A DNA stretch of 64,000 nucleotides from Patiria pectinifera (Eukaryota > Echinodermata > Asteroidea > Valvatida > Asterinidae), in NCBI GenBank assembly GCA_029964075.1, contig CM057142.1, positions 38,380,392 through 38,444,391 of the forward strand, given 5' to 3'. Shown one piece after another: positions 7,493 to 63,570 of this stretch. The position numbers and the translations under genes were made by a program. Position 1 is the stretch's first letter; each line of letters opens with the position of its first letter. The notes under the pieces were generated by a model. It was not told where the DNA came from and made no database searches. It saw only the letters and a program-made list of their open reading frames with translations.

Positions 7493-8460
7493 AGTACTGC
7501 CGAGTACTTAGGTTACCGAGTACAAGTAGGCCTACTTGTACTTCCGAGTACGAGTACTTGTATTCCGAGCACAAGTACTTCTATTTCCGAATACGGCCAT
7601 ACAGCAAATGGTTCATTGTTCGTAATTTGCCCAGCACCCCATTTCACGAAACTCATCGTAACTTACGAGGCATCCTGTCCCTACGATGCGGCGCAGGTGC
7701 GATCCATTTCACAAAACACGTCGTAAGTGCGAGGCGTCGTATGTGTATTTATAGCACAACTCGGTGACTGTTTTATGTATTAAGTCGGCGTACAGTAAAT
7801 AGTCGTCTGGTATTCAACAAAGAGTCGTCGGGTCTCTGCTCCAAATTTGTTAAAACGTAGGACAAAATGGCGGCCGTGCGATGCAATTTTAAAGGAAAAC
7901 GAGCTCTCAGTGGACTGTGTAGCTACTTTGAAATTTCAACTGCAATATTCCAGGCTAATTCATAATTATTCAATGAATTTTCTATTTACAACTTTACACA
8001 CATGGCCTCGGTATTATAATCTCATTTTTGTAATGTTTATGGAACTAAACTGGCTAAAAACGGACTCTTCTTGTTTTGCGACGACCACTAGACACGTCGT
8101 AGCTTGCGACGTGTGTTATGCCGTTGTCAAAGAACTTACGAAGCGTTCAACACATCGCAACTTTCGTGAAATGGATGATACGACGCGTCGCGAGTTTCGA
8201 CGTGTTACACGTCGTAACTCGAGTTGCGACGCGTCGCAGCGCTTCGTGAAATCGGGTGCAGGCCAGATCAATACGGACCGACTCACGGCTAGCTGTTAAG
8301 TGTATTTGTCCAGTCGTACACAGAGAAAAATCAGGAAACTTCGATTTTTCTGCAAGCCAATCAACCATTTACATCTGAAAGTATCGATAATAAAATAAGG
8401 CCGTGGTAAGTCAGTCTATACCTACTATTCGAGTACGACTACTTTGATGATCGAGTACGG
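7493..8460. repeat. Nested foldback with CGAGTAC arms and TTTCACGAA core
   Basis: The outer left arm (7493-7603) is a degenerate array of CGAGTACTTG-type words. A short counterpart (TACTATTCGAGTACGAC and GATCGAGTAC) lies at 8427-8460. The inner element runs 7634-8259 with ends GCACCCCATTTCACGAA and TTCGTGAAATCGGGTGC (16 of 17 inverted match) and many CGTCGTAA / CGACGCGTCG words. It sits immediately beyond the 5' flank homology of T2/T4. A relative is at 56715-56948. Confidence 0.6.
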
Positions 8461-20170: not shown

Positions 20171-20443
20171 ACGTCTCGATAGTCCGAAGTACCATTGGTC
20201 CGAGTTGGTCCGAATTAAGTCCCATTGGTCCGAAGTCCCATTGGTCCGAAGTTCCATTGGTCCGAAGTCGCTTTGGTCCGAAACACAATACTGCGTAGTT
20301 CCACTTGTTCAGGTTGACTGACCCTTACCCTAACCCTATGGGGCGTCGGACCAATGGAACTTCGAAGCAATGGGACGTCGGACCAATTGGACGTTTATAC
20401 CAATGGGCCGTCGGACCAATGGGACGTCGGACTATAGAGACGT
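20171..20443. repeat. Foldback with inverted minisatellite arms (CCATTGGTCCGAAGT)
   Basis: Ends ACGTCTCGATAGTCCGA and TCGGACTATAGAGACGT are inverted copies (16 of 17). The left half is a tandem array of roughly 16-bp units CCATTGGTCCGAAGT. The right half is the inverted array with GACGTCGGACCAATGG. A spacer with CCCTAACCC lies between. No protein frame. Confidence 0.75.
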
Positions 20444-26700: not shown

Positions 26701-29700
26701 ATGGGTGCTCGCAATCATTGACACGACACACATGTGTGCGCAGTTGCTATTATTCGTTGGTTCAGTGCAGCGTGACGTACCTGCAATCGGCTGAATGAGA
26801 ACGTATTCCAGATGCTGATTTCGGGGGGCACTTCAAAATATGACTCGGGAACTTTTGAACTGAAATTGAGATCCTAGAAAACTGTTTTTTTTCAGAATAT
26901 ACAGCATTCACAGTTAAAACTTTATCAGTTTACTTGTTAAGCACCCATCTTTATATTTTGAGCACTTTTGTTGCTTCAAAGGAAACAATTCACAAATGAC
27001 AAATGATCTACTCTACCTTTAATTTCAAAGAGGAACTTACAATAGTCGGCCTGATAGATGAGGCAGCCCCCCTAGCCTGCGCCTGTTGCCTAAACTGTGC
27101 CATGATCATCCGCTGCTCCATTAACTCCATTCGCTGCTGCCTTTGGAGTTCCAAGGTGGCCCCCATGGGCAGGGGGCCCTCCCGTGGGGGGCTGGACCTC
27201 AGGAGGGGGCCGAGCAATGCTGCCGAGAGGCGGGCCAGGGGATTGGGGATACGCAGCCAGGACTGGAGGTACAAGATGTTGAGGCGGTACAGGAGGCCGG
27301 AGAGGAGACCGCATCCCACAACAATGCAGGACTGTGTGGAGTGAGATACCAACTGCAGAAACAGCAATGAAATACAATGTTTCTAAAGGGTGTGATGCTA
27401 CCATTGTTTTTTTTCAAGATATGTATCCATACTGAGGTCCTGATGCATTAAGTCTTGGTTCCAAGACATCCTTAGCGGTGTGGTGTTTTAGCAAGCAACG
27501 GGATATGCAGCGAGTTATCAAAGTGGGTGCCCTTTACACACATGCCAACAGGGCACGGTTCGTCGCTGAGTCAGGTTCGGAAACAGTACGTCCTTACATA
27601 TAGTTGTCAGAGACAACATGAAATTGAGTCCTGATAGTTTTTCGGGCATATCTTTTGTGCAGTACGGGCACAAAAGCAAACCAAAATAAAGGGCCTATTT
27701 TTCGGGGGGGGGGGGGTGAAAAAGTCCAAAATAAAAAACAGTAGCCTTTCCTGTTCAATAAAAAAACATACAAAATGTACAAATTTAACATTTGTTGGGA
27801 GAAACAAAATCCAAACTGTTGAAAATCATGGGCAGGGCAAGTGATGGCTGTTTTGACACATGTGACATGCATACATTTGTAGTGTTCATCCCATCACTAT
27901 GAACGTGCACCAGGTTTTAATTTTCAAACTTTTGCAAATATGTGAAACTGCTACAACTCCTTAACTGTTCTGAAGTTTTGTTTTGGAGGTTCATGTAAAT
28001 GCTTCATGTCTTGTTCACAATGACTTCTTTGTTTTTTTCTCTACATTTATTCATAGCTACTTATCAGAATACATATATTCTTATTATGTTCTGTTCTGTA
28101 GAAGGCCAATGGAATTTCCCGTCAGGGATAATAAAGTCAAATTGAATTGAATTGAATTGAATTGAATTGAATTGAATTGAATTGAATTGAATTGAATAGC
28201 AGCATTCTCAAGTCGGGATTATCCATACGCTCTTGAATCCTCACATCCAACAAAGCACATTTAGTATAAAGAAAAGACTCGGAAAGAAGTTCTCTGCACA
28301 AGTTACAAAAGTGACTGAATTCAACATATCTATTCAAAGTATCCCACTTCAGGATACGCTTACCTCACTCATTTTTTGTAACGCTAACCCTGCTTATTAA
28401 TGCAACAGAATGCACCACTGCTTAATGCAACAGAATGCACCACTGCACCAGTTCTAAAAACTTGTTGCAAATTGTTGCATTCAGCAGTCTCCTGATCTGA
28501 TGCATTCCACCCCCTGCATTCCGTTGCATTTGGCAGGGTAGGTACTTGGTACCAAGGCTGGCATGTATTAGTTCACTGCATTCTGTTGCATTTGGCAGGG
28601 TGCCTGGAGAATTCAAAAACTCTGTAATCCCCATACAAAAACATTCAATGTTCCATGTGCTACAATGCTGCAATTGTGGAGCTTGGAAAGTAGAAAAAAT
28701 GAACAAAGTTTTTTTGTTTAAAGTTATAGTCCATCATTTGTAATTTGTGCATTTTGTTCGTTTGAAGCAACAAAGTGCTCAAAATCTAAAGAAGAGTACT
28801 GAACAACTATCCTGATAAAGTTTCAGCTCAGCTTCAGCTGTATGTTCTGAGAAAAACAGCATTCTAGGATCTCAATTTCAAATCAAAAGTTGCTGAATCA
28901 TGTTTTGAATTGCGCCTGAATTCAGCGTCCGAGACACGTTCTCGCTGAGCCGAATGCAGCTACGCGATGTCGCGCACTGATCCGACGAATTATAGCAACC
29001 GGGGGTGCGTGTGCGTCGTGCCAATGCTTGCGCGCGCTTCGCCGAATTACAAAACGAACTACTAATTTAAATTTTCCTACGGTGCGTCTTAAGAAGCACC
29101 GTTGGAAAGGCCTTCTTTCGTTGATTTCTTCAAAATGACAGCTTGCCAGAAAGAATAATTTCACAGGGAGTTTAGTCCCCTTACTATCTTTCAACCAAGT
29201 ATGTTTTTCAACAATAATTACGCCAGTTACTTTTCGGATAGCTGCAAATAATGGACTATAGCTTTAATGATTAGGACACTAGGCAAGGCACTCACTTGTA
29301 ATCCGAAGATGTACACTAACCACTTTCCGTTCAGTAAATGGCCAAAAACATTCTGACCAGAAATGTAGGGCACATCACAGACGAACGGCACAAATAGTGA
29401 TGCCACGACTCCCGTCCTGAAAAACAGGGTAAAAAAATCAAGGGTTTTAGGATGTTTTAATCTGCAGGAGGATTGTGAATTGTTTGGCACCAAGAAGCTG
29501 AGCCCCTTTTCACAGAGAAGCTAATAAAAACTGTTAAGCAAATGTCCATGCTTAATTAAAGGCAGGGTAGATCATTCATCATTTGTGCATTTTTTTTCGT
29601 TTGAAGCAACGAAAGTGCTCAAAATCTAAAGACGGGTGCATTTTTTTCATTTCATCATTCAGATCTCCAGAATCATGAAACAATACTGTCTTAACCCTAA

Positions 29701-35000: not shown

Positions 35001-35633
35001 TAGCCCAGGTTGGACGAAGTCTTCATTGCATTACGACTGACGTCCAGGATATAAATTGTACCACCATAGCGGAAAAAAATTGTAACACATTTTTTTCATA
35101 TTTTTACCTGACGGAGGAAGCTGAAATTTCGCTTACATACATGTAGGCCTATTCCTTGTGTTCAGGATTATGCCTGCGCTGGGTTTAGAAAAGGCAAATA
35201 TGTCCGCGGGCGGCGTGTTTACCGAAAATTAACCGCAAGTTCTAGTTTTTGTTGAAAACATTTTCAGTACGAACTCCCCGCGTGAAGACGTACACGCACG
35301 TGCAGTTTGCTGCCGCTTGCTGCCGTGGCGGCAGTGTGCTAGGTGTGCATGCACGCGCGCGCGCGCGTAATCTTCACACGGGGAGTTCGTACTGAAGATG
35401 TTTTCAACGAAAGTGTGGGATTGCGGTTTATTTTCGGTAAATACGCCTATATTTGCCTTTACTAAACCCAGCGCAGGAACAATTCTGGACACAAGGAATA
35501 TGTAAGCGGAATTTCAGCTTCCCCCGTCAGGTAAAAATAGGCAAAAAATGTGTTATAATTTTTTTCGCTATGGCAGGAGAGATTCATACCCTGGACTCCG
35601 TTGCGTGTACACAATGGAGTCCAACCTGGGCTA
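35001..35633. mobile_element. Foldback element F1 (TAGCCCAGGTTGGAC ends)
   Basis: Ends TAGCCCAGGTTGGAC and GTCCAACCTGGGCTA are perfect inverted copies. The arms extend inwards with long imperfect pairing (for example CTAAACCCAGCGCAGG, and GTACGAACTCCCCG with CGGGGAGTTCGTAC). The loop is rich in (GC)n. Related to F2 and F3. Confidence 0.75.
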
Positions 35634-43200: not shown

Positions 43201-46200
43201 TTGACTCTTTGGTAGTATTGCACATGCCTAAGTGAAGACTGCGAGCGTTCAACCAATAAAAGGGTAAAAGGGACCAAATTTAATAGAAGTCCTAATTTCA
43301 TGTTTCATCAACCATTTTAAAAGCACCAACGTGACAGGCTCTCGACCAATAGGAATGAGTAAACTATTTATTGGTGTGAATGCATTTTAAAATTGCAATA
43401 ACTTCCGGTGTAATGTTGTTGTTTTTTAAGTTACTTTGAGTGCCTTTTTTCTTTTCTTTTTGCATGTCCCATCTAAAACCGCTTCAATTCGTCTAAAACA
43501 AATTTGCCGGGTACAGCCAACAAATGATGCAACAAGTAGGAGTTCTGGTTTAGTGGTTTTGGCTTTAGTGCTGTGTGTGTGTGTTGTAGTAGCAGTCAGT
43601 TGTTGGGAACCATAGTACCGGACATGTATGTTCTATCAATGTCACAAGTCAGATCCTTTTATTTTCTGAAGTTAGCCTGGGGGAGCCAATGACTGTTGTT
43701 TATATTTTATACACACACAGGGAAAAAAAAAATAAGAACGGGGAAAAAAAAATAAGAACGTTTATGAGGAAATTCTGTACAAATACTTACACAATGTAAG
43801 TGCATGTAAAGGCCACTGTTTCATAACTGGCCTGATGGTCTTCTGTACAGTTTATTAACATGTACTTTAATAAGATGTACATGCAGCACACTACCGGACC
43901 ACAAACGTAGACTTATTGAGGACTCAATTTTTAGGGAGTTTTATTCAAGTTCAAATAACACTTGCATTTTAATCCTAGCTATCTTTCACCGTTGAGCATT
44001 AGCTTCAGCTGGTAACATGATGTCTATTTCAAGCATTTACAGGAAGTTATGCTGTATATGTACCGGTACACTACTGCAACACACTTTTACAACAACATTT
44101 TGTCAGATTTCATTGATGGGTTCTTAAGTAAATGTAAGACTACAATTGCAAGAAGGCATAAATGGTGCTAATTATGACAAATTCTAAGAAGTTTTCATTT
44201 GTGAACTCTTTCAAAGAAATTATCCCTCCCTCCTCCCCCCCAACACAAACAAACACCGAACAAATTAAAAACAGAAACACATACAGTTCCAACATGTGAG
44301 TTGAGAAGCACTAAAACCTTTTTTTTTAATCCAACACCCTAAAAACTTTTCAGTCAGGCTGCTGTCTGTTAGAATTTCTAGTTTGAAACCTATTTAGTTA
44401 AACCCTTTTAGTTAAAGACACTGCTTTTAAAGGAATACCACAGACACCTAATTGAATAAGGAAGTGTGTGGTAAATATGGCTGTCAAGCACTGGGTCATC
44501 CACAGGTCATGTACAGTAACCATGGTAACAGCTAAATACCTCTGCATTGATACATGTAGTATGAACTACCGGTAGGTACACATGATTTTGTCGCGTCAGT
44601 GCAACAAGGTCGTAACTGGATTCTGCAACAAAGTCGTATATCGCGCAAATATGCTCCATGCAACAAGGTCCTGTCTCGCGTATCGCATCTATTGACTTTG
44701 TGTGTACATCCGAGTTATTTTAACCGAGATACGACCTCTTGACATGCTTGACATTGAAAAATCGCATTTCACGTACATGATGTCAGGCACCATTTTAGGA
44801 GATACAACCTTGTTGCAAGGAAACGACGATTTGAAGAATTCACTCAAGTGGGATTCCACATAGACACCAGGGTATTAACCAGTTCGCGTCGGAGGACGGG
44901 ATAACACGCACTGTCTGTTTTTTATACACAGGCACAGCTGACGGGTTAAGATGTCAAGATTGCCTCAACTCTCCTCCGGGTGACGTCTAAACATGCTAAT
45001 CCCTTGTGCCTTTTATACACACACACAAAGTCCGTAAAGTCAGGGTATGAAGTGTTCAAAACCGGGCGAAAAAATGTATGACCAATATTTTCAATATTTT
45101 TACCTTGTTGGAGAAGCTAATTTTTATGTATTAGTATTCTATGTGTCCTTATCTATTGATCCGGGGGTTCAGGAATTCCATATGTGATGCTGACCGACGT
45201 TAATCAGGAAAATAAACTCTAAAGCAACGTTAAACTTGTATTTTTTGTAGACTCGTTTCATCAGTTTCTCACACGTACAATGACCGAGTTCGTGCAACGT
45301 GAACGCACAGTGCGCACGCGCGATTTGCTTTAGTAACTGCCCTCATACACATGCGCACTAACGTGAAGGCGCACGTACGCACGTACATGACGTACGACCG
45401 TACTGATGAAAAGAGACTACAAAAAGTAGAAGTTTAACGTTGCTTTAGAGTTTATTTTCCTGATTAACGTCGGTCAGCATCACATATGGAATTCCTGAAC
45501 CCCCTGGATCAATAGATAAGGACACATACCGTACATGTAGAAAATGTAGGCGTGAAATAAGCTTCTGTAATGAGGTAAAACGTAACAAAAATCTGGTCCA
45601 AATTTTGGATGGTATTACGTAGAGAATTCTCATCCTGGACGTCGGTCGTAATGCAATGAAGACTTCGTCCAACCTGGGCTACGCGTACAGGTGCAATGTA
45701 TGTACAAACACAGAGTTAGTGCAATATCCCTCGAATGTAAACATACATTCTCTACTGAGTAGTCCTTTCAGTCAAAATCAAACAAGTGACTGTTTTCAAC
45801 AGTTAAGGATTCCCAGCCTATATAAAGCAGGGTTGATTGGCTGGGACTGTTTAACTTGATACAGCTATGCTTTGACTGCGGGTGAGTACACAATGTAATA
45901 AAACAGCTGTGACCACAACTTGCCTGCTTTGCCTGTCATTGTCTGTTGACCCAGTTTGACTAGACACAGTGCTTGTTTGACATTATGATCTGACTGCTGG
46001 TGACTAGCCTTTGTTAAATGTATAGCAGGGGAAGTGTACAATGTAAGTGAATTTTGACCGTCTGTGACTGTTTAAATAGCAGGAGGGTTAAGCGCTTAAA
46101 CCACTGCATGCAAATGGTTTGTCCCTCCCACTGGTGCTCTGCTGTTGACATGGTTTATGCACAGAGTCTATAGACCAGAGACTTCATCAGACACATCACA

Positions 46201-49200: not shown

Positions 49201-52200
49201 ATGACACTCTGGTACCCCGAGTTCCGCATGTGCAAAACGGTACGAGTCCCACCAGTGGGTACCCGAGTAACAGTCTTACATGGCAGGATGACCGTAATAC
49301 CATGTAAAATTCTGCTAAATCCACTTCGAAAGTCTGCCAATCACCCAGTAGGCCTATATATTGCTGTTCCATTGTGTAAGGGTTTGTTTTTCAGGGATCT
49401 TTCAAAAAACGAAGGTTTTTCAAACCAAATGTGCCCATATTTCTCTTAATCTTTTTGATTGTCCTTCATCTACATAATTCTGCCGAAAAAAATATTCTGC
49501 TGGATTTTCTGTACAACTCATTTTTGGATACAAATATTCTGTCAAATGTAGCCGAAATTCGGCTAGAACGGTCACTCGATCACAGTATGTTTACTAAAAA
49601 TTGAAGCGTGGCTGTTACGCCCCAACTATTGCATCGGTCCCAACTATAGTTGGGACTGTCCCAACTATAGTGCGGCAGTTGGGTCGGCCCAACTATAGTT
49701 AGGACTGGAGTTGCGCCGGACGCTGTGGCCCAGCTATAGATGGGCCCCACCCATAGCTAATTTCAGTGGTTCCAAGTAAAGTCAGACGTGTATATATCAG
49801 AGCTGTAGAAATGTTACGGTGGCTGTACAGCAAGTGAACTATAGTTAGGACCGCAAAATTCAAAGATTGGCGTGGCCCAACTATAGATAGCTAATGTCAA
49901 GGGTCCCAAGTAAAGTCGGACATGTATCAGAGCTGTAGGGAATGTTTTATAGTTGTACATCAATGTAAACTATAGTTGGGACCGCAAAATTAAAATATTG
50001 CACTGTGGCCCAACTACCCCACCCATAGCTAATTTCATTGGTCCCAAGTAAAGTCAGATGTGTATAAGAGTTGTAGGGAATGTTTAACCCTAACCGCCCT
50101 GAATCCTCCAAAATCCTTTTTGCAAATTGGAGGAATTTGCAGGATTGAGGTCACATGGCAAAAGTGCATTGCTGATTTCGGAGTACGCACTGTGTCAAGG
50201 TCTTGGGCCGGACCTTGTGTTGTTTATGCTCAGCCGTGCATAAATTTAGTCCTTGATTATACTTGACATCCTCTCCGCACTGCTCCAGGATGTCACTGCC
50301 TCTGCCTCAGCCTATTGACAGTTATAGCCGGAGGATTTTGCAGGATTCAGGCAGTGGTCACCCCTCCATGGACCATATTCAAGAAATAACGGAGGAATTT
50401 GCAGGATTAAGGCTATATGCTATTTTCCCACGAGGCCAATTGGAGGATTTTGCAGGATTGAGGCTACATCCTAGCAAAAAGGCCTAGGGAGTTAGGGTTA
50501 ATAATCGTACAACAACGTACACTATAGTTGGGACCACAAAATAAAAAGATTGGGGTGGCCCAACTATAGATTAGCCCCGTCAATAGCTAATTTCATTGGT
50601 CCCAAGTACAGTCAGATGTGTATCAGAGTTGTAGGGAATGTTTTATAGTCGTACAGCAACATAAACTATAGTTGGGACCGCAAAATAAAAAGATTGGAGT
50701 GGCCCAACTATAGATTGGCCCAATCAATAGCTAATTTCAATGGTCCCAAGTAAAGTCAGACGTGTATCAGAGCTGTAGGGAACGTTTTACAGTTGTACAT
50801 CAATGTAAACTATAGTTGGGACACCGCAAAATAAAAAGATTGGAGTGGCCCAACTATAGATGGGCCTATGACTACCAACTATAGTTGGGCCAGCCCAACT
50901 GTGGAACTACAGTTGGGACCGTACTAACTATAGTTGGGACGATCCCAACTATAGTTGGGACCGATACCATAGTTGGGGCGTAACAGCGCTATGTATATAG
51001 CCACATTCACGGGTCTAGGTACAAGTTACTCGGACTAGGGTAAAATAACGATGACAATGGACAACTACAAAACGCAACACATAATATAAAAATGGCAATC
51101 ACCACGCGATGTACCGTAAATGGGAGTTTTCTGGGGATAACACTGGGAATCCATGGTAAATCAATCAATTATAAATGCCGGAGGCGCGCTGTACGGCATC
51201 AACTGGCCCATTATTTTTTTAAGGCAGTGTATATTTTGCCGGAGACGGCAAACCTTCAGAAAACGTTAGTTTGCCGGATATGCACTGAACATTTTTTTTG
51301 TACTTAAACATTTTCCGGTGACAAATTTTAGTCTGGCTCCATGCCAATACTATCGTTGTATTTTTGTATTTACAAGATGGGAATCAGACCATTTTATAAT
51401 TTCGGACTTTATTTCCCTTTTAAAAAAAATCCTCCAGAGCCACAAATCTGAAAAAGAAAAAATAATACTCTGCAATAAAATGTTTGAGTCATATTAAAAT
51501 AATAAAAGAAGAATATTCTTATTTATTTGGAAACAGGTCAACTCGTACGCGAACCAACTCGTACGCGAGTCAACTCGTACGCGGATTGGTCAAGTCGTAC
51601 ACGAGTCAACTCGTACGCGAGCCAACTCGTACGCGTGCCAACTCGTACGCGAGCCAACTCGTACGCGAACCAACTCGTACATGAACCAACTCGTACGCGG
51701 GCCGTTTTAGGAGTGGTTTCGAGGATTGGGTTGGCATGGTTGGGAAGAATTTTCAGGGCCACAAAAAAAAACCGGCCCTTTTCAGGGCCACACATTTTCA
51801 CAAAAGAGAATAGACAATTTGCACTGTCTAACTGAAAACCCAATCGGTCCTTTTCAGGGCCACCACACATTTGCAGTGATATTAAATAAAATTCAAATTT
51901 TTAAAAATAAATCAAATTCACCTCCCCATTGTTTTATTTTACAAAATATAATTTGGAGACATAATAATTAGGACTAACAAATTATCGGACCCAAGCAAAA
52001 AAATAATTTTCTGACCCAAGAAAATCGCATTTGACCCAAGAAACCTCGCATTTCCGGTGAAATTATATAAAATTCTGATTTTAACAAGGCGGATTCAGCA
52101 CTGGCGGATTCAAAAATCAACTACATTTAATTTGAAAATCTCAACCTTTCAAAAAAAAGGTAAAATTATGCCGACCTACCGTACCGAACCTAATTTCATC

Positions 52201-52987
52201 TGTCCATGTGAGCTAAACCCATCGTCTAAACTCACGCGTCATTTGTTGGTCCGCGTACGAGTTGGTCCGCGTACGAGTCGGTCCGCGTACGAGTCGGTCC
52301 GCGTACGAGTCGGTTCGCGTACGAATTGACTCGCGTACGAGTTGGTCGCGTACGAGTTGGTTCGCGTACGAGTTGACCTGTGGGAAAAAAACACTTAAAA
52401 TTGTGGCGGGGATCAGGATTCGAACTCGGGACATCCCACTCACTAGAGCCATTGCCTAACCACTACACCGACTGTGCTACACAACTTTGGTGGGAATTTA
52501 ATACATGTTATAATTCAGCCCTATCTCAAAGAGTACAGCGCCCTCTGTTGATTTGGATTGCCGCCGGCAAACCTTTAATAAACGTTAGTTTGCCGGCGTT
52601 ACCTCCGGCAAAATATACACTACCTTTTTTTAAATTTAATTGATAAACTGCGAAGGAAAATCATAATTCTACATGTACCCCAACATGCCCAAGAAACTGT
52701 TCAAAAATTACCAAAAAGGTGTCATTACATTGAGAGAAGTCTGCTTTAGGTTGACAATGTCATTTTTTTTAGTAATAAAAGAAATTCTTGATTCTAATTT
52801 GATCGAAACAAAACAGGATCAAACACTACACGATCGCCATTTTATTAGAAGGGGTTTCCCACCCATTAACGTTATGCCGCTACAAATGACTAACTGACCG
52901 ACCGGTCCATGCCGACCAAAAAAACAAACCTGTTGTTCCCCTTTCAAGCTCGATCCTTTCTTCCGGCACATCAGATAGGTCCATCAT
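40144..52987 (-). CDS. SYNJ2BP: SYNJ2BP/OMP25-like: PDZ protein with mitochondrial tail anchor (148 aa)
   Basis: Four exons on the minus strand: 52987-52930, 46340-46204, 41778-41665, 40281-40144. All splice sites are GT-AG and the phases agree. The product begins [20 protein letters not shown]. It then has a PDZ domain with the carboxylate-binding GLGF loop (about residues 20-23), GGRDQPHV, and [14 protein letters not shown]. It continues [18 protein letters not shown] and ends with a membrane segment ([19 protein letters not shown]) and KHRKH. Length and order match SYNJ2BP (human 145 aa), a tail-anchored mitochondrial outer-membrane adaptor that binds synaptojanin-2, RRBP1 and other C-terminal PDZ ligands. 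The short basic C-terminal tail fits mitochondrial targeting. The introns are full of foldback elements and span over 12 kb. Confidence 0.94.
40520..41410. repeat. Interspersed repeat F4, copy b (interrupted)
   Basis: Carries GTCAAAACAAGTCAAA, GCATGCCTACGTGAGA and, after a 441-bp insert, AACCAATAAAA and CCGGCCACGTGACGGGCTCT, as in copies a and c. The insert is the TTAA element at 40807-41247. Confidence 0.65.
40807..41247. mobile_element. TTAA-target MITE inserted in repeat F4
   Basis: Perfect TTAA on both sides (40803-40806, 41248-41251). Ends CCCTAAAGGGGCCGGG and CCCCGGCCCCTTTAGGG are inverted copies. Copies a and c of the host repeat are uninterrupted at this point, which defines the insertion. 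Size 441 bp. PiggyBac-type target. Confidence 0.8.
41665..41778 (-). CDS. SYNJ2BP: SYNJ2BP exon 3: second half of PDZ
   Basis: 38 codons, phase 0-0. Acceptor TTCCTGTAG, donor GTAGGT. Encodes [20 protein letters not shown] and VVLVVQH. Confidence 0.93.
42840..43385. repeat. Interspersed repeat F4, copy c
   Basis: It starts with a hairpin (AAGACTGGCTTGGGG with CCCCAAGCCGGTCTT). It continues with GTCAAAACAAGTCAAA and CAACCAATAAAAGGG and ends with GACAGGCTCTCGACCAATAG. Confidence 0.6.
43386..45038. other. SYNJ2BP intronic sequence with a small foldback
   Basis: No exon. At 44601-44817 GCAACAAGGTCGTA is inverted as TACAACCTTGTTGC, with further copies of the GCAACAAGGTC unit inside. Confidence 0.45.
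45039..45681. mobile_element. Foldback element F3
   Basis: Same family as F2 in the opposite orientation. It has GGGTATGAAGTG, GGAATTCCATATGTGATGCT and its inverse, CTTTAGAGTTTATTTTCCTG and its inverse, and a right end GTCCAACCTGGGCTA. The left terminal repeat appears shortened. It lies in a SYNJ2BP intron. Confidence 0.7.
46204..46340 (-). CDS. SYNJ2BP: SYNJ2BP exon 2: first half of PDZ
   Basis: 137 nt. Acceptor TTCTTTTCAG, donor GTATGT. Encodes [20 protein letters not shown], then [20 protein letters not shown] and DKIVE. The GLGF loop is intact. Confidence 0.94.
46341..48381. other. SYNJ2BP first-intron sequence
   Basis: No exon found. A TCAAGCTGAACCC block followed by A-rich sequence and CACTCC(A/C)GG is directly repeated near 47370 and 47820. 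GTAATTTTTCGGAATATAAG near 47888 resembles a widespread animal repeat end, but the family was not recognised. Confidence 0.4.
48382..48496. repeat. Hairpin with long arms
   Basis: ACACAAGTGCATTTCGAACG with GGGAGTCGGGAACTAG on the left is inverted on the right (CTAGTTCCCGACTCCC, CGTTCGAAATGTACTTGTGT). The loop is about 28 nt. MITE-like. Confidence 0.65.
48958..48983. repeat. Perfect 26-bp palindrome
   Basis: The sequence ACGTGGCGTTGTA is followed directly by its exact reverse complement TACAACGCCACGT. It may be the centre of a decayed element or a cruciform-prone site. Confidence 0.8.
49611..50987. repeat. Foldback with CCCAACTATAGTTGGGAC units and internal tandem repeats
   Basis: The ends GCTGTTACGCCCCAACTA and its exact inverse bound the element. 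Many copies of the palindromic word CCCAACTATAGTTGGGAC lie inside. A longer unit of about 130-140 bp (with GTCCCAAGTAAAGTCAGA and GAGCTGTAGGGAA) is repeated about five times. It is interrupted by the TTAA element 50088-50497. No protein. Confidence 0.8.
50088..50497. mobile_element. TTAA-target MITE nested in the CCCAACTATAG foldback
   Basis: Flanked by TTAA (50084-50087, 50498-50501). Ends CCCTAACCGCCC and GGGAGTTAGGG. It contains four or more GGAGGATTTTGCAGGATT words. The host unit is uninterrupted in its other copies (GTAGGGAATGTTTTATAG), confirming the insertion. Confidence 0.78.
51121..51175 (+). repeat. 55-bp direct repeat, copy 1
   Basis: Identical over 55 nt to 53249-53303 (starts TGGGAGTTTTCTGGGGATAA), with unrelated flanks. 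Confidence 0.75.
51534..52380. repeat. Foldback with inverted CAACTCGTACGCGAGC minisatellite arms
   Basis: Ends CAGGTCAACTCGTACGCG and its inverse. The left arm (to about 51705) is a tandem array of 16-bp CAACTCGTACGCGAGC units with variants. The right arm (from about 52248) is the same array inverted. The 540-bp centre has a repeated TTTTCAGGGCCAC word. Open frames here are artefacts of the tandem array. Confidence 0.8.
52411..52482 (-). repeat. tRNA-like SINE head
   Basis: On the minus strand, TGTAGTGGTTAGG (box A-like) and GAGTTCGAATCC (box B) are spaced as in a tRNA. The 72-nt stretch abuts the inner foldback. Cloverleaf pairing looks degraded, so it is called SINE-like and not a functional tRNA. 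Confidence 0.5.
52930..52987 (-). CDS. SYNJ2BP: SYNJ2BP exon 1: start
   Basis: 58 nt from ATG to donor GTTTGT, phase 1. Encodes [19 protein letters not shown] and the first base of Gly. The acidic ERIELERG stretch parallels EEEINLTRG of vertebrates. Confidence 0.88.
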
Positions 52988-55880: not shown

Positions 55881-57812
55881 TATTAACCACCCTGTTCATA
55901 AACAAATCCAACAAGTTTTACAAGATTTGTAGACAAGCAGTATATTTGTACCTTGTGATATGGAATTGGGTGGTTAAGCTTAATGGATTTTGGAGCTGTT
56001 AGGCCGCCCTCAGGTCGACCTTGCGACGACACAGAACAGTTGGCGACTGGCTTTTCAGGTTCAAGCTGCGCCTGAGCTACAAACGTCGGAAACATTTCAG
56101 TTGCCGATTTTTGTGTGACCTGAGTGTAACTCAGATGATATTAAGATGATCGGCATCAGTCGGCGCTAATAAACATCAAGTCGCAAAAGTAGAAAAATTT
56201 CAACTTCTGCGCTGCAATGGAACATGTTACTGACAGGCGGGAATCAATTGTAATCGACCTGTGTGATGTTACGACATCGTCGCGCATCCGGATCATCCTA
56301 TTCCATTGGCCAGCCAATCAGCATGTGGCAAAAATGGCTGAATGAAAAGACGTGGCCGTGGAAATATTGTTTGATTGTTACCAACACACGCACCAACATT
56401 TGAAGACGTCACATGATCACGTCTACACCAAAGAACTGTCGTGTCATGAGTGACATGAGCACGGTTGCCATTATTTTGTGTCGAGATGCCCCTTGTTCGA
56501 CGAGAATCACACAGTGTCTCAGTTTTGTGACTTAAGTATTACTTTTCTGCTTGATGCCAATGGTTTCGCTGCAGCGCAAGCAAATCGCAGGTTGACCTGA
56601 GGCAGCCCTTATAGTCACAGCTTTGTGGTTAAAATTATGCAGTTTCTAGAGAATCCCTAGAGATGGGATTATAAAGTAAGTGTTAGTGCCCCCAGTCGAT
56701 TTCACACAGCGGTTGATTTCACGAAATGCTAAGACGCGTCTTAGGAAGGATAACTCGTCTTAACTCGCGACTCGTTTTGGGATCAATTTCACCAAATTTA
56801 AGACACGTTCAACACGTCCTAACTTCCTGAGCAACGTGGCTGAACTCGTCTTAACTTGAGATCGGTCCAAGCATTGCTGTACGGTCTGAGGGTCGTCTTA
56901 TTTCATAAATGCATGCGTTAATTTGTGTAAGACAAGTTTCGTGAAATCGGCCCAAGGCTGAATGTAAAAATTGAGAATTCACCCCAGGCTGAGAAAAAAA
57001 ATGCAACAATAGATGTGAGCAGTGCCAAAGGGAAGTTTCCCTCACTTTTCAAATTGTCCAAAGGTTCTAATTTTTTAATGAAGTAAACTCCTGGTGAGAC
57101 ATCTTAGGATGCTATTCAGGCCCAGTCAAGATGTACTAAATATGAGCATTGAATCCTGATCAAAATCAAGACTTGTCTTGAATGTTTGTTCTCTTACCAT
57201 AATACCATGTCAATTTGGTAGCTGAGACAACTGAAGTAAAATGCCTCCTGCTAGGATTGGAATTGGCATTATCAAATAAATTTCACTAACATTCACAAAT
57301 TTAAAGAAATCGCTTAGTGAATTTTAGGCATGCAAACATGGCCGTCACAAAGAATGAGGAAATTCCAGCTTTACAAGACTCGCAGTGATGTTTTAAAATG
57401 TTACTATAGATTGCAAGAGAACTTTAAAAAGTAAATCACAAAATCGGCAAATTTGTCTTCTTGCAATTTTAATGTAAATGTGCTCATTCTGCATTTGATG
57501 TACAATGTATTCATGTTATACATTTGATAATATTACCCAGTTGAGCGTACAATAGTTCCAAGCTGTCATGACATTTGATTAATTAATATTTCCTTTTTAG
57601 AGTGTTCATGTATGTTAGCACTACCTTTCAAATATTACACGCAATATGCATGAAAGGTTCTTTGTACAGTACTAAATTACATGGCTGAAACAATTTGATC
57701 TGCAGTTTAATGTGTCAGATATAAGCAGTTAATTATCCATCGTGTTTTGGCTACGTTTAATGTACTGTACAGTACAAAATAAATTTTGAGACTTGGTAAT
57801 GTGATTGCTGTG
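55881..57812. other. 3' UTR and spacer with a foldback
   Basis: No exon. Contains the foldback at 56715-56948 and AT-rich sequence otherwise. Confidence 0.4.
56715..56948. repeat. Foldback with GATTTCACGAAA ends and CGTCTTAA words
   Basis: GATTTCACGAAA at the left, TTTCGTGAAATC at the right, with AAGACGCGTCTTA and CTCGTCTTAAC words between. Its ends resemble the inner element at 7634-8259. Confidence 0.6.
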
Positions 57813-57815
57813 TAA

Positions 57816-58181
57816 GGCCAAAAAAAAAGTCTCCGGTTTCAGGTATGCGCGCGCGTAGCCGTAGCCATGCGCGTCGGCAAAATGAAAAAGGTTTTTATTC
57901 AATGAAAGATGATGTCTCAAAACCGCCAAACTCACTGGTTTGACTGGAATCCTGCTGCTGCACAATTTTAACGTGTTTTTGGATGGGGTTATGATCGAGA
58001 ATAAGCTTTATGTGGCCTCTCTGGACTCCCATATATTTGCACTAAGTTTAGTCGGGCACCATTTGCAGTCATCAGCCAACATTTAAGGCAAAAAAAATCA
58101 GGTAAAAAAAATAAAGCCGCGTCGCTGCACCACTTTTTGGGCAAGCTCAATACCAGAAACCGGAGACTTTTTTTTTTGGCC
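57816..58181. mobile_element. Harbinger-like MITE, copy 1
   Basis: Ends GGCCAAAAAAAAAGTCTCCG and its inverse, flanked by TAA on both sides (57813-57815, 58182-58184). The 3-bp TAA target and GGCC start fit PIF/Harbinger. 366 bp, no transposase. The copy at 60222-60591 is inverted relative to it. Confidence 0.75.
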
Positions 58182-60221
58182 TAATAGTTATATTTTCTCC
58201 AAATTGCAGTAAAGATTCAATCATGCTTTTCTGAGCAATATAAATCATTGCCCTCTACCTTAACACACCTTGTGCCTTAACGCACAAGGTCTATTACAGG
58301 ACAAGTCCAAGTCCAAGAAAAGGTCCCCTGTTTTTGTCCTGTACGTAACACCATGTTTTCTTTAATTACATAATCATCGCAAAGATAATAATATACAAAT
58401 TCTTGTGGGTATTCTCCTTGCAGATGCCCAACAGTTGAATGAAAATCACTGAAATCCATGATCTTGGAGGGTTAAACTTACATTAAGTATGGGACATACA
58501 TGTAGCATGCGCGAATTCATGTAGCAGCACCTGAAAAGATGAAACCCTTATTTCATGTTGGCTTCCCCCCCCCCTCCCCCGCCAATATTAGAGAAAACAA
58601 TACAAAAACTAACCTGTCAAAATTTCAACTCGGTAGAAACTTTTTGAGAAAACTGAAAATGCATTTTCATTTTTCTTGATGCAAAACAAGGTTTCCGTTG
58701 AAAGCCCTCCCTTCCAAAATGTTCTTGCTAATACGTTTTGCTCCCTCTTGTGGTATGATCCCAGTTTGTCACTCAGGAAAAATAATTCTCATTCACACAT
58801 ACAGGAATTTGTATCCTGGTGGAGTCATTTCTTTGTTCTCGTGTCCTAAAGTTTTCGAGTTTGAAAGTGTAGTTTCAAAATGCTCCTATTTTAACCAGAA
58901 TTTATTTCCTGGGCTGAAATTTGGACTTAATATCCCTTATATAAAATACTTCAATTTGCGACAAATCAACACACCTTGGAATTTCCTACATTCATGACTT
59001 TTTGAGTAAAATCCATATATCTATTTCGTGATGATCTTGTGGAAACGTATTCATCTGCCCTGTGGAGACGTATACAATCTTTTGTTCCCTATTATGCTCC
59101 ACAGGGTACCATCATCATTTGAGAGAAAATAAATGAAAGCATAATAGGTGCAATACATGTACATATTTACTTGCAATTAAGAAGCATAACTCATATTATT
59201 TTGGCAGTGTCATTTTTGAACGTTTGCAAATGGTGTGATCATTATCTTTAAAATTGACCACTGACCACAGGTTTAATTCCAACTTTATTACCCCCCCCCC
59301 TGCTGTTTAAAAGGTCACCAACAGTCAAAGTTTCCTTCCACTTCCCCTGGTATACTTTTAACACACCAATGGGTCACTTGACCAATTTTGACCCAAGTAA
59401 CAGCATGGCTCAGAATGCATGTTTGCATAGGAGGGTTAATACTGACATTTATATTTATGCCAAACATGATCACATGTAAAAAGTAAATTTATTTCTCCAC
59501 AACGGCAGTGAATCAAAGTATTAATTTCATTATTAAAATTAAGAGTTGTTGACACTATTTGTACTAGATGTATGTTCTACTATTCGAAAAGACTTCCCGC
59601 CAGATGATAGTTTGCTCAACTGTTTACAAGTATCTATTTTTGACAATCTTTTTTTGTACTCTGATTCGTATAATTTGTACTTAAAATGTATACCTTGTGT
59701 TAAGGTTTGAAATATTTAGTTGAAAGTAGCCAAGTCGTGATTTGTTGTGCAATTATGAAATAAATGGAGCATGGAACATGTTTGATGTCATCACTACTTG
59801 TACTTTGTGTGGCATCTGTTGGATAAAAAAAGACAACTTCAGTTACAGATGTCATTCAATTAGAGATGTCATATAAACAAATTACAAGTATTTCAACAGA
59901 TTTAGATCAGAGATTCCACATGATATTTTGAGTTCAGAAGGGATTCATATTTGGAGGAACTAGGAAAATAAAATTCAAAATTTGAACATTGCGTACTCAC
60001 AAGATGAATATATCACTGTAATACTGTGTTTTGGTTTTGAGATGTCTTTTATTATCCAAACTACAAGGACATCATTTCATATGAAATGTCAGATATGATA
60101 CGGTTCGGTTACTGTTGAGACTTTTGCTCAATATTTCCTGATTTCTTTTAAATTTTGTCAATATGCCATTATGTTGGAATTGGTGGTGGGAGAAACCGGA
60201 GATTTCAAAATTTGGTTATAA
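58182..60221. other. AT-rich spacer between the two palmitoyltransferase genes
   Basis: No supported exon, RNA or repeat boundary. Confidence 0.4.
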
Positions 60222-60591
60222 GGCCACAAAAAAAAAGTCTCCGGTTTCTGGTATGGAGCTTGCCCAAAAAGTGGTGCGGCGATGCGGCTTTTTTTTTTTT
60301 TTACCTGTTTTTTTTGCTTCAAATGTCGGCTGATGACTGCAAATGGTGCCCGACCAAACCTAGTTGTAAATATATGGGAGTCCAGAGAGGCCACATAAAG
60401 CTTATTCTCGATCATAACCCCGTCTAAAAACATGTTAAAATTGTGCAGCAGCAGGATTCCAGTCAAACCAGTGAGTTTTGCGGTTTTGAGACATCATCTT
60501 TTATTGAAAAAAAACCTTTTTCATTTTGCCGACGCGCATGGCTATGGCGACGTATGCGCATACCAGAAACCGGAGACTTTTTTGTGTGGCC
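60222..60591. mobile_element. Harbinger-like MITE, copy 2 (inverted)
   Basis: Flanked by TAA. Ends GGCCACAAAAAAAAAGTCTC and its inverse. The interior matches copy 1 on the other strand (for example GGCACCATTTGCAGTCATCA). 370 bp. Confidence 0.75.
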
Positions 60592-61225
60592 TAATCCTTC
60601 TTTTTTTTTCAAACTGAATTTCTGATTTCACTAGAACTTTCCATTCAGCTCACATTCATGCCAAAAAATAGCGGAGAGTGAGTTGCCACATGGTATGCGC
60701 TCAGAGCTGTAATGGTGACAAAAAATGGGCGGGAACTCTCCTGAACCAAGAAGACCACTAGCGAGTAAATGTGGTCACGGTCAGAGACCGTGGAGCAAAT
60801 TGGGAGATGTTCCAGTTGGTTGGGTTTTTTTAGCCTGTGTCACAAAAAAGGGAAAGCTTACTTTTTAATAAAATTAGTTTTGAATATCGGGTTTTCAAAA
60901 TCCAAACCAAATCCATGTAGTGGAATTCAAACCGAATTGTAAAAGATCTGGATATTATTCCCATCACTGGTCAGAACTAATCAATTAGCATACTTTCTTA
61001 AAATTCTCGTCTGCAATGTATTGTGGTTTGTAAACTGAAATAAAAGCTTTCAGTTTCAATTTGATTAAAGGGAATATACAACATTTGCAAACATCGAAAA
61101 ATAAAACTACCAAGTTTTTACGAAATACCTTACTAGGATGTTAGTAAATGACAGTCTAAGGCATCCTGTAAAATTATGGCACCTGGTGTCAAGTCATTTT
61201 CAAGAAACTTGTATTTCTGTATACA

Positions 61226-63392: not shown

Positions 63393-63570
63393 ACTCTGCT
63401 AAATGCAACAGAATGCACCAGTGGTAAAAAGTTCTTGCAAGTTGTTGCATTTAGCAGTCTCCTGATCTGATGCATTCCACCCCTACATTCTGTTGCATTT
63501 GGCAGGGTAGGTACTTGGTACCAAGGCTGGCATGTATTAGTTCACTGCATTCTGTTGCATTTGGCAGGGT
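63393..63570. repeat. Foldback with TGCAACAGAATGCA arms, copy 2
   Basis: Near-identical to 28387-28601, including AGGTACTTGGTACCAAGGCT and GGCATGTATTAGTTCACTGC. It lies 40 nt after the ZDHHC22-like stop. Confidence 0.65.

Follow-up and report, generated by a model that had tools for sequence, protein, structure and literature searches.

Background

Foldback transposons have long inverted termini made of short direct repeats, and this design has been proposed to have evolved independently in several lineages (PMC3169594, PMC4079207). Here we analyzed a 64,000-nucleotide stretch of the starfish Patiria pectinifera genome (assembly GCA_029964075.1, contig CM057142.1, positions 38,380,392 to 38,444,391 of the forward strand), hereafter the window, and describe a dispersed foldback family, designated family B, whose window copy is element B (51529-52381). 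Two further inverted elements of the window, A (49611-50987) and C (20171-20443), were compared with it.

The closest described systems are Mutator-like elements (MULEs). In Aedes aegypti, 10 of 12 Mutator-like families with long terminal inverted repeats (TIRs) are described as carrying subterminal tandem repeats of 9-15 bp, and the TIR of one of them, Muta1, consists of a terminal motif and nine 12-bp units with 3-4-bp spacers (PMC5225508). As in family B, a short terminal motif of Muta1 and Muta5 is followed by subterminal tandem units (nine; 15 bp long in Muta5) that are inverted at the two ends, and the Aedes elements are also reported to have target-site duplications (TSDs) of 8-9 bp and non-autonomous derivatives that vary in their middles and in how many units they carry (PMC5225508). 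The Muta elements, unlike the elements described here, have a known transposase (PMC5225508); the likeness is one of described design. Tm1 of root-knot nematodes is described as having asymmetric motifs at its outer ends, beyond the inverted repeat, arms in which the number of 13-15-bp tandem units varies, forms resembling miniature inverted-repeat transposable elements (MITEs) and TSDs of 8-10 bp, all of which match the design of family B; it differs in unit sequence, in that 9-bp TSDs are the commonest, and in that one form encodes a Mutator-like transposase (PMC3169594).

Two Drosophila systems show related designs. In Galileo, the tandem repeats of the long TIRs hold further binding sites for a THAP-domain transposase (PMC3688188), a role similar to that proposed below for the family B units; however, this transposase belongs to the P superfamily and the units of one subfamily are ~210 bp long (PMC3573991, PMC3688188). 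Tetris of Drosophila virilis is likewise a non-autonomous, modular foldback with 8-10-bp TSDs, but its ~220-bp units are closer in length to the 138-144-bp repeat of element A (PMC4079207). The Tetris paper also cites a 1983 report on sea-urchin foldbacks (PMC4079207).

The initial annotation of this DNA had considered the design a candidate for something undescribed, a view that is not supported, as several such families in one genome have already been published for Aedes aegypti (PMC5225508). Family B appears to be a new family within a known architecture (Mutator/foldback, as in Muta1 and Tm1), likened to these elements by design and not by sequence. The alternative that the annotation itself had raised, namely that its elements belong to known foldback families, is therefore correct in kind for family B, sequence homology being outside the comparison. 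The sea-urchin TU foldbacks are probably also close to family B, again by description and not by sequence: they reportedly have an outer domain of tandem ~15-bp units, 8-bp TSDs and modular middles.

A Dispersed Foldback Family with 8-bp Target-Site Duplications

The window copy has the following features:

51529-52381, + strand: element B, MITE-like non-autonomous transposon of the foldback type, with an intact left end, an altered right end and no TSD
51529-51572, + strand: left terminus, GGAAA followed by CAGGTCAACTCGTACGCG...; 28 of 31 copies match the family consensus throughout the outer 44 bp
51539-51703, + strand: left arm, tandem array of the 16-bp unit CAACTCGTACGCGAGC; in 30 of 31 copies, 4 bp are inserted between the third and fourth units
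51704-52244, unstranded: middle, differing between copies; no long open reading frame (ORF) in the 20 copies examined
52245-52375, - strand: right arm, inverted 16-bp unit of the left arm; 27 of 31 copies have a 15-bp step close to the outer end

Tandem Repeats Finder reported a 16-bp array in each arm, with 10.1 copies at 51539-51703 and 8.2 copies at 52245-52375. The two arms run in opposite orientation, with 85% complementarity over 142 nt (E 6e-34), which bears out the earlier proposal of a foldback with inverted 16-bp arm arrays at 51534-52380, and the outer ends are perfectly complementary over 36 nt. We placed the left boundary at 51529 because GGAAA is part of the element. As single-stranded DNA, 51529-52385 had a folding energy of -206 kcal/mol (z = -17 against 20 shuffles). 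At its right end the window copy has CCTGTGGG in place of CCTGTATTC and reads CCTGTGGGA. The sequence adjoining this altered end (52381-52520) resembles a tRNA-derived short interspersed element on the minus strand, with a box-B-like TTCGAATCC recognized by eye.

A genome search with element B yielded at least 182 matches on at least 18 contigs; this number is a lower bound, as 40 of 490 candidates were scored. We compared 44 loci, which represent 38 distinct places (L017, L019, L020, L029, L031 and L032 duplicate others). Both ends, located by an 18-base seed with no more than 2 mismatches, were recognizable at 31 of these places, and these 31 copies, including the window copy, form the family B copy set. 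The other seven (L005/L031, L006, L014, L016/L020, L024, L028 and L044) were left out by this rule, and some of them may simply stop before an end. One of them, L016 (C6:1713102-1714444), has a right end that stops at ...GACC and is directly followed by the left-flank repeat TTGCCAAC, apparently an 8-bp TSD beside a shortened right end.

An exact 8-bp TSD was present in 23 of the 31 copies and a TSD with at most one mismatch in 26; when the left flank of one copy was compared with the right flank of another, none of 930 pairs matched. Since the element ends in C, we also considered a TSD of 9 bp, but this fitted only 4 of 31 copies, and 8 bp was therefore retained. The ends GGAAACAGG / CCTGTATTC (a pair given also as GGAAACAGG / GAATACAGG) were exact in 30 of 31 copies, the sole exception being the window copy, and the outermost bases, from GGAAACAGG to CCTGTATTC, are thus unlike at the two ends. 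The outer 44 bp equalled the consensus at the left end of 28 copies and at the right end of 29. Full-length copies ranged from 806 to 1721 bp (n = 31) and had variable middles. The longest ATG-initiated ORFs in the 20 copies examined encoded 49-116 amino acids. The TSDs and the many copies together support the presence in this genome of a mobile foldback family with arms of tandem units. Over the right 370 bp, median pairwise identity was 0.978 (range, 0.83-1.0), which suggests a fairly recent spread of the family, as judged from identity.

The Terminal Arrays Are Inherited by Position

Comparison of the first four units of each arm showed that units at the same position differ little between copies (0.40 of 16 bases in left arms and 0.22 in right arms), whereas units within one copy differ by 1.86 and 2.40 bases, respectively. 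When unit order was permuted, none of 200 permutations gave a value as low as the observed between-copy value in either arm. The corresponding figures for a set of 20 copies were 0.38 and 0.42 versus 1.65 and 1.65. Unit variants thus go with position in the arm and recur from copy to copy.

Irregularities in unit spacing are also common to the copies. A 20-bp step (36 where the next unit was mutated) was present in the left arm of 30 of 31 copies, and a 15-bp step in the right arm of 27, with the latter merged into a 31-bp step in one copy; in the three remaining right arms, the unit finder halted before reaching this step. As the finder skips mutated units, unit counts are approximate.

Identity between left and right arms over bp 45-160 was 0.810 within the same copy (n = 31) and also 0.810 between different copies, whereas left-left and right-right identities between copies were 0.944 and 0.961 (300 sampled ordered pairs for each between-copy value, out of 930). 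Arrays are therefore inherited and the arms are not homogenized copy by copy: in family B they pass on by position, with no detectable arm-to-arm exchange beyond the outer 44 bp.

Proposed Mobilization of Family B and Its Probable Superfamily

Dispersed copies with 8-bp TSDs, conserved ends, no long ORF (20 copies) and inherited arrays lead us to regard element B as a member of a young, non-autonomous cut-and-paste foldback family that is moved in trans and carries inherited arrays, a reading to which we assign a probability of roughly 85%. A transposase encoded elsewhere would most likely recognize the near-invariant outer ~40 bp and bind each arm at multiple subterminal sites, namely its 16-bp units; insertion by this enzyme would create the 8-bp TSDs. 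The arrays would have formed before the sampled copies spread and would travel along with the element, and later change would consist of gain or loss of units, mostly in 16-bp steps, and of replacement or deletion of the middle. Both the transposase and its binding to the 16-bp units are predictions by analogy with the systems described above. In this form, the earlier idea that the units are read by a shared protein partner is plausible, and a predicted protein of this kind, probably a transposase, is the part of that idea worth keeping.

Mutator-like is the most likely superfamily for family B, by analogy, because of the combination of an 8-bp TSD, long repeat-built TIRs and short asymmetric outer ends. 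TSDs of 8-10 bp are described for MULEs (PMC5225508, PMC3169594), a range that includes the 8 bp found here.

Several points weigh against the reading as a whole. No transposase-bearing copy was found among the 20 copies examined for ORFs. The window copy lacks a TSD and its right end is changed, two or more TSD mismatches occur in 5 of the 31 copies, and 7 of 38 places lack one or both recognizable ends. The end-conservation figures are inflated, since the seed used for selecting copies sits inside the conserved stretch. In 27 of 31 copies the two arms are identical over the outermost 34 bp, counted from CAGG, and in this stretch exchange and selection cannot be told apart. No TSD was seen by eye around element A or around element C, and the comparison for further copies of them covered 116 kb of loci; the explanation is therefore established for B only. 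Finally, 8-bp TSDs are known also from hAT and P elements, and hence Mutator is not settled.

This last point leads to the alternative that a transposase of the hAT or P type mobilizes family B and that its likeness to Mutator foldbacks reflects convergence, as in Galileo of the P superfamily. The 8-bp TSD is in its favor and fits hAT in length; against this, the ends GGAAA/GAATA, with CAGG 5 bp inside, do not appear similar to hAT ends, which are of the CA.. type. Galileo does provide a precedent for foldback arms outside Mutator (PMC3573991, PMC3688188), but short subterminal repeats together with 8-9-bp TSDs (PMC5225508) and asymmetric outer motifs (PMC3169594) have been described for Mutator-like elements, and we consider a hAT or P origin unlikely.

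A pitch of ~15-16 bp, or one and a half DNA turns, recurs in unrelated foldback families (16 bp in B and C; as described, 12 plus 3-4 bp in Muta1, 15 bp in Muta5 and 13-15 bp in Tm1). Because of this recurrence, one might speculate that an oligomeric transposase imposes the spacing and that independent elements converge on it, with spacing fixed and unit identity free. We regard this idea as a long shot: a strict spacing rule is hard to reconcile with the 20-bp and 15-bp steps seen throughout family B or with the long units that Galileo, Tetris and element A have.

Other Inverted Elements of the Window

The features of elements A and C are as follows:

49611-50987, unstranded: element A, a 138-144-bp tandem repeat in one direction, enclosed by inverted ends rich in palindromes
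49611-49671, + strand: left inverted terminus of element A, 93% complementary to 50927-50987
49745-50085, + strand: 138-bp tandem repeat, 2.5 copies
50088-50497, unstranded: nested element, from CCCTAAC to GTTAGGG and flanked by TTAA on both sides, that interrupts the array of element A
50501-50866, + strand: 144-bp tandem repeat, 2.5 copies; oriented like 49745-50085 and 80-82% similar to it
50927-50987, - strand: right inverted terminus of element A
20171-20443, unstranded: element C, 273-bp foldback; units of 16 bp (TTGGTCCGAAGTCCCA) occupy the left side and recur in inverted form on the right

The initial annotation had assigned A, B and C to a single architecture with inverted arrays of 16-18-bp units. 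B and C do have inverted 16-bp arrays, and only A departs from this description. The inverted ends of A (93% over 61 nt) contain CCCAACTATAGTTGGG, a palindrome that is identical on both strands, so that the "inversion" of this palindrome is trivial. The bulk of the element (49745-50085 and 50501-50866) has the same orientation on both sides, with plus/plus matches of 80-82%. We therefore rejected element A as an inverted 16-18-bp array, since most of it is a one-directional 138-144-bp repeat with a nested insertion; the inverted ends stand, the inverted short-unit arms do not. In design, A is a looser relative. The nested element is presumably piggyBac- or Kolobok-like. A stretch of 39 nt from its left end recurs with 90% identity at L019:3243-3281, where the match lies at the locus edge, and, apart from this, no second copy of A was found in the 116 kb of loci compared, the window's own stretch included.

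Element C was confirmed as a foldback with inverted 16-bp arrays (67% self-complementary over 276 columns, E 9e-30). No second copy was found in the same 116 kb. By analogy, C probably works like family B, with putative mobility. The octamer TTGGTCCG is common to the units of C (20225-20288) and B (52245-52344), in opposite orientation relative to the ends, and may be a chance match. Taken as a class, B and C have long inverted termini made of short direct repeats and A has them in part; dispersed copies with TSDs are seen in family B only.

Three more elements had been listed as looser versions. At 7493-8460, Tandem Repeats Finder reported a 21-bp array (2.9 copies) near the left end, and there are inner palindromes at 8092-8205 (66%, E 4e-6) and 8181-8231 (83%, E 3e-4), but no inverted pair joining both ends was found at E<=1e-3. 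No inverted-repeat row was found at this threshold for 56715-56948. We did not accept either as a class member, the first having palindromes inside but unpaired ends and the second having no inverted row. Parts of these two elements, 8122-8224 and 56734-56836, are 68% alike over 103 nt in the inverted sense. The third element, 28387-28601, contains a 25-bp unit twice and a weak inner inverted match (61% over 108), again with no inverted-repeat row at E<=1e-3; it has a second copy at 63414-63570 (94% over 158 nt).

The lack of visible TSDs in A and C, and of second copies other than the 39 nt of the nested element, would be expected if A, C and the looser elements were local rearrangements and not transposons. 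However, the matched inverted ends of A and C are well above chance, 28387-28601 does have a second copy, and the comparison covered a very small and biased part of the 613.5-Mb genome. Local rearrangement thus seems an improbable origin for these elements.

Repeat Background of the Window

The window contained 54 local inverted-repeat rows of at least 40 bits, several being counted per element and other palindromic elements included, whereas each of 20 dinucleotide shuffles gave 0-1. Tandem-repeat rows numbered 30, compared with 0-1 in each of 10 shuffles. These controls, together with the folding score of element B, led us to reject a chance origin of the inverted and tandem repeats. Two large palindromic stretches, 35042-35596 (75% self-complementary) and 45140-45528 (79%), had no array listed inside by Tandem Repeats Finder, and 57815-58196 and 60207-60592 form an inverted repeat pair 2 kb apart (91% over 387 columns). 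Among three window ORFs scanned, one matched tetratricopeptide repeats and two encoded DHHC palmitoyltransferases. ARAGORN found no tRNA genes in the window.

Origin of the Arrays and Implications

The initial annotation had suggested hairpin-templated or strand-switching amplification, by which each element would build its own inverted array; inverted arms with strong folding, unit numbers that differ among copies and the 27 of 31 copies whose arms are identical over the outermost 34 bp would all agree with this, but it is contradicted as a per-copy process in family B and is very improbable, given that unit variants are position-specific and common to copies, that arms of the same copy are no closer over bp 45-160 than arms of different copies, and that the 20-bp step is confined to left arms and the 15-bp step to right arms. 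Such a process could have given rise to the first array.

With 31 full-length copies, 26 of which have 8-bp duplications, family B offers a clean natural data set. It bears on how repeat-built transposon ends evolve, with units inherited by position and their number changing mostly in whole steps.
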